The notes under the pieces were generated by a model that was given only the letters and a program-made list of their open reading frames with translations, made no database searches and had not been told where the DNA came from. Source: Bacteroidaceae bacterium (lineage in GTDB: Bacteria; Bacteroidota; Bacteroidia; Bacteroidales; Barnesiellaceae_A). Taken from it: a DNA stretch of 64,000 nt. The stretch is taken from the NCBI GenBank assembly GCA_017522135.1, contig JAFXAB010000033.1:1-64000 (forward strand). The letters are read 5' to 3'. The position numbers were made by a program, and so were the translations under genes. Positions 28,760 to 59,202 of this stretch are shown here, piece after piece (the stretch's first letter is position 1; every line of letters starts with the position of its first letter).

Positions 28760-30132
28760 AAAGATTGGAGTTGTATAAATCGGTATATTTTGTGGGTGCC
28801 GGAGGTATAGGTATGAGTGCGTTGGTGCGCTATTGTTTGTCGAAAGGCTTGCGTGTGGCAGGCTACGATCGTACGGCTACACCGCTTACGGCACAATTGC
28901 AACAAGAGGGAGCAGAGTTGTTTTTTGATGAGTCGGCTTCGCTCATACCCTTGTATTGTCGCAATGCCGAAGATACACTGGTTGTATACACACCCGCAAT
29001 ACCCAGCAATCATGAGGGCCTGAACTATTTTTTAGAGAACCACTTTGAAGTTATCAAACGAGCCAAACTGTTGGGACTTATTACTCATTCACTCAGAGGA
29101 TTGTGTTTTGCCGGTACACATGGCAAGACAACAACGTCGAGCATGGCGGCACATATATTTGCCCAGTCGCCAGTAGGGTGCAATGCCTTTCTTGGAGGTA
29201 TCTTGCGCAACTACGATAGCAACTTGGTCTTGTCGGAGCATAGCGAGTATGCTGTGATAGAGGCCGATGAGTTTGATCGCTCGTTTCATCAACTTTTGCC
29301 CTACATAGCAGTAGTTACCTCAACCGATGCCGACCATCTCGATATATATGGTACAGAGGAGGCCTATTTGGAGAGCTTTGCGCACTTTACCTCATTGGTG
29401 CAACCCGGTGGTGCGCTCATTGCCAAGAAGGGTATAAAGATGCAACCACGACTGGAAGAGACCGTGCGATTGTATAGTTATTCGAAAGATGAAGGTGACT
29501 TTCATGCCGAGAATATTCGCATAGGCGATGGTCGTATCGTGTTTGACTTTGTAGCCCCCGATGCACGAGTAGATGATGTAGAGTTGGGTGTTCCGGTAGA
29601 GATAAATATCGAGAATGCAGTAGCGGCTATGGCTGTAGCATGGTTGTGTGGTATATCCGGTGACGATATGCGTCGAGCTGTGGCTTCATATATGGGTGCC
29701 AAACGTCGTTTTGAATTTTGGCTACGCTCTTCACAATGTGTCATGATAGACGATTATGCTCATCATCCCGATGAGTTGAAAGCCTCTATTCGTTCTGTAA
29801 AAGCACTCTATCCTGAACGCCGTCTGAGTGTGATTTTTCAACCACACTTGTACACCCGAACACGCGATTTTGCACCTCAGTTTGCCGAAGCTCTTTCGTT
29901 GGCCGACGAGGTAATTTTGCTCAATATATATCCGGCTCGTGAGCAGCCTATCGAGGGAGTTACTTCCCGAATAATTTTTGATAAAATTTTATCACCTCGC
30001 AAAGAACTTTGTGACCGTGAAATGTTGCTTGAACGGATAAAAGAGTATAACTTTGAAGTTTTATTAACGATGGGTGCCGGTGATATAGACCGCTTGTTGC
30101 CTCAGATATGCAATATTGTACGTGCTGTATGA
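28756..30132 (+). CDS. murC: UDP-MurNAc:L-alanine ligase MurC
   Basis: A 458-residue ligase adding L-Ala, the first stem residue. VYFVGAGGIGMSALVRY forms the N-terminal nucleotide fold, GTHGKTTTSSMAAH the ATP loop near 118-128, EADEFDRSFHQL the central motif, and DDYAHHPDELKASI with QPHLYTRTRDF the C-domain. Its stop codon overlaps the ftsQ start as ATGA. Confidence 0.96.
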   Translation: MKRLELYKSVYFVGAGGIGMSALVRYCLSKGLRVAGYDRTATPLTAQLQQEGAELFFDESASLIPLYCRNAEDTLVVYTPAIPSNHEGLNYFLENHFEVIKRAKLLGLITHSLRGLCFAGTHGKTTTSSMAAHIFAQSPVGCNAFLGGILRNYDSNLVLSEHSEYAVIEADEFDRSFHQLLPYIAVVTSTDADHLDIYGTEEAYLESFAHFTSLVQPGGALIAKKGIKMQPRLEETVRLYSYSKDEGDFHAENIRIGDGRIVFDFVAPDARVDDVELGVPVEINIENAVAAMAVAWLCGISGDDMRRAVASYMGAKRRFEFWLRSSQCVMIDDYAHHPDELKASIRSVKALYPERRLSVIFQPHLYTRTRDFAPQFAEALSLADEVILLNIYPAREQPIEGVTSRIIFDKILSPRKELCDREMLLERIKEYNFEVLLTMGAGDIDRLLPQICNIVRAV

Positions 30133-30914
30133 AACGCTTCTTGAAGATATTGACAGTAATACTCCTCTTAGGGTATCTTGTAGCCTCAGTTCTAATGAGT
30201 GTGTACAAGAGTGAGGAGGTAGTGTGTCAACGTTTCTATATAAGCGTGTGCGATAGTGCCGAGTGCCAATTGATAACAGCCGATAAACTCTATAAGTATC
30301 TCGGCAAGCAACATCTGTTGCCTGAGGGTAAGTTGTGTTGCGACATCAACTTGTCGGCTATTGAGCAGAGTGTGGGTCGTATAGACCTACTTACCAATAT
30401 AGATTGCTATTATGAACAGAATGGTGATGTGTATCTTATGGTAGAGCAACGTCGTCCGTTTATGCGCGTCATTACCGATGATGGCGATACTTATTATCTC
30501 GACAGAGAAGGTGTGCGTATAGCGGTAGATACAATGTATGTGGCACAAGTGCCATTGGTGACGGGAAATGTAGATGATCGTGTATCGGCTGCATCGTTGA
30601 TACCATTGATAGAGTATATCGAGGCACATGAGTTCTGGTGTAAACAAGTAGCGCAGATATATGTATCGCCGCAACATGAAATCATGCTATACCCCCGGGT
30701 TGGCAATCATGTAATATTGTTGGGTGCTATCAATGGTTATGAACGCAAGATGGAGAGTGTATTGGCACTATATAATCAAGCATTGCCTCAAGTAGGCTGG
30801 AATACTTATGATGTTATCTCGGTGAAATATAAAGACCAGGTAGTGTGTTCGCGCCGAGATAGAAAATATAGACACAAAACATGGACAAAAAAAACATTAT
30901 CAACATATGAGTGA
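30129..30914 (+). CDS. ftsQ: Cell division protein FtsQ
   Basis: A 261-residue bitopic membrane protein. The ATG at 30129 overlaps the murC stop and gives a short basic end plus one membrane helix (about 5-24); an upstream in-frame start at 30108 is inside murC and less likely. The periplasmic part has a POTRA-like section (about 35-110) with YYEQNGDVYLMVEQRRPFMRVI, then the FtsQ beta domain. It links FtsL/FtsB with the cytoplasmic ring. Overlaps ftsA by 8 bp. Confidence 0.88.
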   Translation: MKRFLKILTVILLLGYLVASVLMSVYKSEEVVCQRFYISVCDSAECQLITADKLYKYLGKQHLLPEGKLCCDINLSAIEQSVGRIDLLTNIDCYYEQNGDVYLMVEQRRPFMRVITDDGDTYYLDREGVRIAVDTMYVAQVPLVTGNVDDRVSAASLIPLIEYIEAHEFWCKQVAQIYVSPQHEIMLYPRVGNHVILLGAINGYERKMESVLALYNQALPQVGWNTYDVISVKYKDQVVCSRRDRKYRHKTWTKKTLSTYE

Positions 30915-39721: not shown

Positions 39722-39729
39722 CAAAGATA
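39722..39729 (-). promoter_or_regulatory. -7 element of tadA
   Basis: TATCTTTG on the minus strand, 127 bases upstream of the chosen ATG. Confidence 0.55.
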
Positions 39730-39897
39730 GTGAAATGGGAGGTAAAGAAAATCTCACTGCCGATTTTTTTTTGACTTTGCTTTGCTCATTGATAAGCCCC
39801 ATGCTATCTTGTCCGAGAGCTTACAGTATGTTGTATGATGAATGTGTTTGTTTTTGGAAAAATTCTTATAAAATGCGCTATTTTTATAAAAAATTTA

Positions 39898-51663: not shown

Positions 51664-51694
51664 CAAAGATAGCGATAAGCGAGAGGAGAACAAA
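51664..51694 (-). promoter_or_regulatory. Promoter of the secreted-protein operon
   Basis: On the minus strand TTTG (51694-51691) and TATCTTTG (51671-51664) are 19 bp apart. The -33 part belongs to the first tandem repeat copy, so the repeat supplies part of the promoter. Confidence 0.7.
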
Positions 51695-51879
51695 ATAAGT
51701 TTACTTATTTTTTATCCCGAGCGGAGCTATCTTGGGCCTCAGCCAAAGTCGCGATAAGCGAGAGGAGAACAAAATAAGTTTACTTATTTTTTATCCCGAG
51801 CGGAACTATCTTGGGCCTCAGCCAAAGTCGCGATAAGCGAGAGGAGAACCCTGTAAGTTTACTTATTTTTTATCCCGAG
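51672..51879 (-). repeat. Tandem 79-bp repeats upstream of the secreted-protein operon
   Basis: Copies begin at 51672, 51751 and 51830 (exact 79-bp period). Copies 1 and 2 differ by one base in the part near GCGGA(G/A)CTAT; copy 3 stops after about 50 bases and has CCCTG in place of CAAAA. Each copy holds the inverted repeat AAATAAGT-TT-ACTTATTT (partly lost in copy 3), and copies 1 and 2 a CCCGAG/CTTGGG stem. Only the gene-proximal copy borders a full TATCTTTG; the others have CGACTTTG. Confidence 0.9.
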
Positions 51880-58939: not shown

Positions 58940-58947
58940 CAAAGATA
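58940..58947 (-). promoter_or_regulatory. Gene-proximal -7 element of mtnN-luxS
   Basis: TATCTTTG on the minus strand, 23 bases before the mtnN ATG. Further -7 matches lie upstream at 59025-59032 (TAACTTTG), 59110-59117 and 59195-59202 (both TATCTTTG), spaced exactly 85 bp. Confidence 0.65.
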
Positions 58948-59202
58948 ACAACAAACGAGCGAGAAACATGAAGTTTACTTCAATGTTTTTCACAGCGAGT
59001 GCAGTATATCTTCGAGATTTATCTCAAAGTTAAGAACAAACGAGCGAGAAACATGAAGTTTACTTCAATGTTTTTCACAGCGAGTGCAGTATATCTTCGA
59101 GATTTACCTCAAAGATAACAACAAACGAGCGAGAAACATGAAGTTTACTTCAATGTTTTTCACAGCGAGTGCGGTATATCTTCGAGATTTATCTCAAAGA
59201 TA
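58941..59202 (-). repeat. Tandem 85-bp repeats carrying promoter elements
   Basis: Three nearly identical copies start at 58941, 59026 and 59111, with a further AAAGATA at 59196. Copies differ at only a few bases (for example AAAGTTAAG in the second). Each has the inverted repeat AACATGAAGT-TT-ACTTC-A-ATGTT, the AGCGAGTGC and TATATCTTCGAGAT segments, and on the minus strand a -7 TAnnTTTG. Confidence 0.92.

Follow-up and report, generated by a model that had tools for sequence, protein, structure and literature searches.

The window analyzed here is a 64,000-nucleotide stretch of DNA in which mtnN (PNP_UDP_1 family, PF01048; 58230-58916) is followed 11 bp beyond its end by luxS (PF02664; 57736-58218) and preceded by a codirectional DUF1232 gene (PF06803; 59223-59621), all on the minus strand. 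The initial annotation had described three 85-bp units plus a fourth edge between DUF1232 and mtnN, and this arrangement is present: Tandem Repeats Finder (TRF) places an array at 58940-59202 (period 85, 3.1 copies, 96% matches, score 498), and a repeat search returns copies that are 96-98% identical without gaps, at spacings of 85 and 85 bp. Both methods delimit a gene-proximal unit 1 (58940-59024), an internal unit 2 (59025-59109), and an internal, distal unit 3 (59110-59194), likewise on the minus strand. The element TAnnTTTG, said to recur on this strand at exact 85-bp steps, is found at each of the four positions, as TATCTTTG in unit 1 (58940-58947), TAACTTTG in unit 2 (59025-59032), TATCTTTG in unit 3 (59110-59117), and a further TATCTTTG at the distal edge, outside any full unit (59195-59202); this fourth, -7-like box is possibly an original or duplicated promoter box. 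In Bacteroides, sigma-ABfr promoters carry the -7 consensus TAnnTTTG and a -33 TTTG, and the 5′ UTRs of B. thetaiotaomicron peak at 23 nt (PMC7366714). The unit 1 box ends 23 nt ahead of the mtnN ATG, and unit 1 most likely supplies the mtnN-luxS promoter.

Read in gene direction, the basic unit (∼70-85 bp) consists of an arm (AAGATAGG or AATATAGG), CTCGG, an imperfect hairpin (H), CTCGC, a spacer that can accommodate a -33 position, and the box TATCTTTG (or TATATTTG), and arrays hold one to six such units. At mtnN, family covariation places hairpin H at 58959-58993 in unit 1 (minus-strand loop TAAA; RNA fold of -12.0 kcal/mol) and at 59044-59078 and 59129-59163 in the other two units. A junction hairpin (J), in which the -7 box of one unit pairs with the arm of the next, lies between units 1 and 2 at 59007-59032, where it includes the internal -7 box, and again at 59092-59117 and 59177-59202, all on the minus strand. 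Across all junctions, the mean fold of J is -6.9 kcal/mol, versus -4.3 kcal/mol for chimeric junctions, and its two sides co-vary between subtypes. The 7-bp arms AAGATAG/CTATCTT, which were examined as terminal inverted repeats, pair and covary, and may serve hairpin J.

The pairing of H and the outer arms is maintained by compensating changes, with 92.7% of cells paired; doubly changed cells number 37, and shuffles give 11.8. The covariation score is 0.333, compared with 0.119 when shuffled; none of 500 shuffles scored as high, and slid partners reached at most 0.07. In a sequence-only alignment of 160 distinct units, single stem pairs alternate among GC/AT, TA/CG/GC, and AT/GC/CG, and a T-C mismatch is frequent near the base of the H stem. 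G-T pairs outnumber A-C pairs within H stems (43 versus 8), and this asymmetry was considered as a sign of a sense-strand RNA hairpin; this reading was set aside, as the asymmetry is in part an alignment artefact (a bulge) and in part the contribution of one lineage.

Two further members of the family in the window, and the genome-wide family itself, were overlooked in the initial annotation. A second minus-strand array, of 2.7 units of a 79-bp subtype (51664-51879), was recovered by TRF and a covariance model; its proximal box alone reads TATCTTTG, and its internal boxes read CGACTTTG. This array stands ahead of a 154-aa ORF, and its sole intact -7 box is the proximal one. A decayed single unit (CAAAGATAGTGAAATGGGAG ... 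CTATCTTG) was located by pattern match and sequence at 39722-39812 of the minus strand (approximate boundaries); it ends in TATCTTTG and CTATCTTG, and its central hairpin is poor. The sequence AAGTTTACTT occurs six times within the window, compared with 0.19 expected. As read from the sequence, the 79-bp subtype has an exact -33 TTTG with a 19-nt spacer, and the 85-bp subtype has only a weak one or none.

A covariance model built on 22 diverse units (R1) has 68 matches in the window's own 2.1-Mb genome (G000), 29-78 in each of eight congeners (G001 and G003-G008 among them), and 35 in a genome from another family (G035). It also matched 20 of 218 sampled Bacteroidales genomes, several of them with many copies, and in a phylum-wide draw of 296 genomes, in which the order was represented by the window's own genome and no fewer than two others, R1 matched the window's own genome alone. 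Based on these counts, the repeat family is patchy within the Bacteroidales and R1 is specific. A pattern for the 75-bp subtype yields 58 matches in G000 (reversed control: 0), and one identical 70-mer unit occurs at four G000 loci, on separate contigs and ahead of different genes. The mtnN array is one cluster of a dispersed hairpin-repeat family, and is not specific to mtnN-luxS. Rfam searches, judged by gathering score and E-value, returned only 5S rRNA, tRNAs, and sub-threshold chance matches to mir-71; the phage, plasmid, and viral collections gave no match, and no account of the family was found in the open-access literature searched.

Other sequences adjoin the repeats at some loci. A second, GC-richer subtype with other hairpin stems (AACC..GGTT) adjoins some of the G035 arrays (L148, L151, L155, and L157). 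In G000, genes for a KilA-N protein and a Vsr endonuclease (L012, 3-1011; contig C24, about 29310-30318) are flanked by two near-identical hybrid units (C24:29024-29095 and 30785-30859), as if this segment had been inserted into an array or had moved along with one. Contigs C6, C18, and C39 of G000, as well as the L046 contig, terminate inside arrays, and the unit counts there may be lower bounds. That contig ends so often hold arrays is what an artefact of metagenome assembly would produce, but the repeats occur in independent assemblies of nine species, with subtype-specific covariation, and many arrays are internal to long contigs, which makes such an origin extremely improbable.

The position of the arrays relative to genes points to a promoter role. 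For 68 of 90 arrays in G000, G008, and G035, a correctly oriented ORF starts no more than 100 nt downstream of the proximal box; the distance is usually 20-45 nt (medians of 26, 24, and 45 nt, respectively). In the window, 19 of 49 long ORFs have TAnnTTTG on the sense strand in the 120 nt ahead of them and 3 of 49 have it on the opposite strand, and the sense-strand occurrences cluster 21-28 nt ahead of ORFs, at distances similar to those of the repeat boxes. Both the consensus of the repeat box and the leader length agree with the B. thetaiotaomicron data (PMC7366714). The repeat family seems to bring a promoter with it, and its units would direct sigma-ABfr-like promoters toward housekeeping genes of unrelated function. 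The genes served include thyA (thymidylate synthase), polA (DNA polymerase I), a ClpP-type protease, pdxJ, ispD, RpiB, Rpe, dapA (dihydrodipicolinate synthase), shikimate kinase, pantothenate kinase, transporters, and (by eye) a tRNA. The array as a device specific to AI-2/SAH was rejected as a candidate, given that the same family precedes thyA, polA, dapA, pdxJ, ispD, the tRNA, and many others.

Two other roles upstream of genes were weighed. The units are palindromic, repeated, and directly upstream of promoters, and could in principle be operator or enhancer repeats that bind the regulator of a dispersed regulon. This is decidedly unlikely: the stem bases vary in compensating pairs and are not conserved, the genes downstream of the arrays are unrelated in function and form no common regulon, and, among the loci read around matches, G000 and G008 have in common only about 5 of the roughly 32 genes with arrays. 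It is more improbable still that each unit is an intrinsic terminator or insulator ahead of a promoter. Although the RNA hairpins are stable (-8 to -15 kcal/mol) and many arrays come after codirectional genes, a T-run follows the hairpin in the 75-bp subtype and in neither G035 nor the 85-bp subtypes, and many arrays sit between divergent genes.

The boxes within an array are not equally preserved. Boxes were counted in 88 arrays from G000, G008, and G035, together with the mtnN relatives. In multi-unit arrays, TAnnTTTG is intact in 52 of 53 proximal units versus 39 of 86 internal units (Fisher p about 5e-12), although one locus is counted twice in these unit totals (only there), because REL_L049 and G008, whose MtnN proteins are identical, probably represent a single genome. 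The asymmetry recurs in each genome (proximal versus internal: 19/20 and 17/30 in G000, 19/19 and 15/29 in G008, 10/10 and 3/21 in G035). As the units inside one array are related, the per-array count is safer: 16 arrays combine an intact proximal box with a broken internal one, 1 is reversed, and 16 are without difference (sign test p 0.0003). In G035, one-base deletions (CACTTCTTTG, CACTAATTTG) are shared among the internal boxes and recur across many loci. At mtnN, every internal box has survived in the window, L046, and L049, and one is broken in each of the relatives L047 and L048.

These counts bear on the proposal that the array is a row of duplicated promoters, which is only partly supported: promoter elements do face mtnN-luxS, but the activity of all copies is not supported as a general rule, with TAnnTTTG intact in only 39 of 86 internal units. 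Because the boxes at mtnN all still fit TAnnTTTG, several transcription starts are possible at this gene. The stronger form of the proposal, in which every copy fires and the number of units sets mtnN-luxS expression, draws on these four of four fitting boxes, on the differing unit numbers at mtnN among species, and on the roughly half of internal boxes that are intact in G000 and G008. It is nonetheless unlikely, considering that breakage is far more frequent among internal than among proximal boxes (via the recurrent deletions in G035) and that some mtnN orthologs lack any array.

The variation in copy number anticipated by the initial annotation is borne out between species. Unit numbers upstream of mtnN differ between species (0, 0, 2, 2, 3, and at least 3); the sources are metagenome assemblies in which units may have been collapsed, and all comparisons are between species. 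L046 (92% aa identity in MtnN) has at least 2.9 units of the window's subtype at a contig end. L047 has two units of another subtype, L048 two of the 79-bp type, and L049 three of a further type, and there is no unit in L050 and L051 (93% aa identity). For dapA, G000 has three units; G006, G004, and G001 (98-99% aa identity) have none, nor do G008 and G007, and a single unit is present in G005 and in one of the two G003 copies, of differing subtypes. For pdxJ, G000 has two units, G005 has one, G004 has a single diverged unit, and five others have none. At a given gene, arrays come and go quickly between close relatives. The dapA leaders of G000 and G004 are alignable from the -7 box (TATATTTG) to the ATG and not upstream, so that at this one locus the gene-side boundary of the unit is the -7 box. 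Congeners whose DapA proteins are 98-99% identical do not have the same genes in the same order upstream of dapA (L210-L218), which suggests rearrangement near the repeat sites at this gene.

We consider it probable that the mtnN array is a locus of a dispersed, non-autonomous, hairpin-forming Bacteroidales repeat that behaves like a mobile promoter. A unit would be gained beside a gene with the -7 box as its gene-side edge, presumably through an insertion event and not because repeats recombine, and transcription from this box would maintain or replace the gene's promoter. Tandem copies would arise afterward, probably through slippage or unequal recombination. Selection would keep the gene-proximal box functional, and in most arrays that box only, while the upstream copies, their boxes drifting or disabled, would remain as repeats that form structures.

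With respect to the gain of units, 26 of 60 full-length arrays have TAnnTTT at the distal edge, compared with 2 of 60 for a control position, and some of these distal boxes are remnants of further degenerate units; an excess of this kind is expected if insertion happens beside a -7 box. More speculatively, and with considerable doubt, the element may spread by targeting host -7 boxes, with the arm AAGATAG pairing with the target TATCTT as a guide; each insertion would then rebuild a working promoter, and expression could be rewired genome-wide with genes unharmed. No insertion with target duplication at a clean empty/filled site was shown, because divergence of the intergenic flanks is too great and synteny at dapA is not constant. 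The repeats could alternatively move when copies at separate loci recombine, and the upstream synteny at dapA does differ.

A further possibility considered was that the repeat is a REP/REPIN-type element mobilized by an IS200-like transposase such as a RAYT. Like REP/REPINs (PMC8049555, PMC3733652), the repeats are dispersed, intergenic, non-autonomous, imperfect hairpins with covariation and a frequent stem mismatch. Unlike them, the unit is without a GTAG or CGTC tag and without RAYT dependence, and it carries a promoter box at its edge. Y1_Tnp (PF01797), the sole enzyme family searched for, is absent from the repeat-rich own genome as well as from G001, G004, G006, G007, and G035, and the four Y1 genes that were found have no repeats nearby. 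The distribution of the repeats is not matched by that of an IS200/RAYT-type transposase, and mobilization of this type is quite unlikely. If mobile, the family would point to some mobilizing activity by which units are copied.

If the mobile-promoter reading is correct, mobile DNA may be exchanging the promoters of this lineage: a noticeable share of the promoters in these gut Bacteroidales would come from a fast-moving repeat, and orthologous genes in sister species would run on different promoters. The family would then be a natural experiment on promoter turnover, and arrays in which a kept -7 box stands beside disabled ones would be one on the minimal needs of a promoter. They also carry a warning, in that arrays break short-read assemblies.

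Putative mobile promoters, which are discussed in PMC8049555 and PMC4596501, were reportedly defined by Matus-Garcia, Nijveen and van Passel in 2012 (NAR 40:10032) and by van Passel et al. in 2014. These are near-identical promoter-bearing sequences before unrelated genes, with quick gain and loss. Correspondingly, highly similar predicted promoters precede non-homologous genes here (the 70-mer at four loci), they are placed and oriented as promoters of the gene would be (68/90 arrays), and presence or absence varies among close relatives (mtnN, dapA, and pdxJ). The BrickBuilt MITE of Porphyromonas gingivalis is likewise intergenic, dispersed, and tandem, with predicted hairpins and a Bacteroidales host (PMC4596501). 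It has promoter activity, as is predicted for the present repeats, and differs in its 23-nt unit (AGAYCATARTATCCTCTCRTRTG), leader, tail, IS-like terminal inverted repeats, bidirectional promoters, and restriction to one species (PMC4596501); no sequence resemblance to the repeat unit was seen. The units also resemble the sigma-ABfr promoters of Bacteroides in their -7 TAnnTTTG, -33 TTTG, and short 5′ UTR, although ordinary promoters of this class sit outside any repeat family (PMC7366714). Compared with putative mobile promoters, the units described here are distinguished by covarying H and J hairpins, tandem arrays, and the keeping of only the proximal -7 box.
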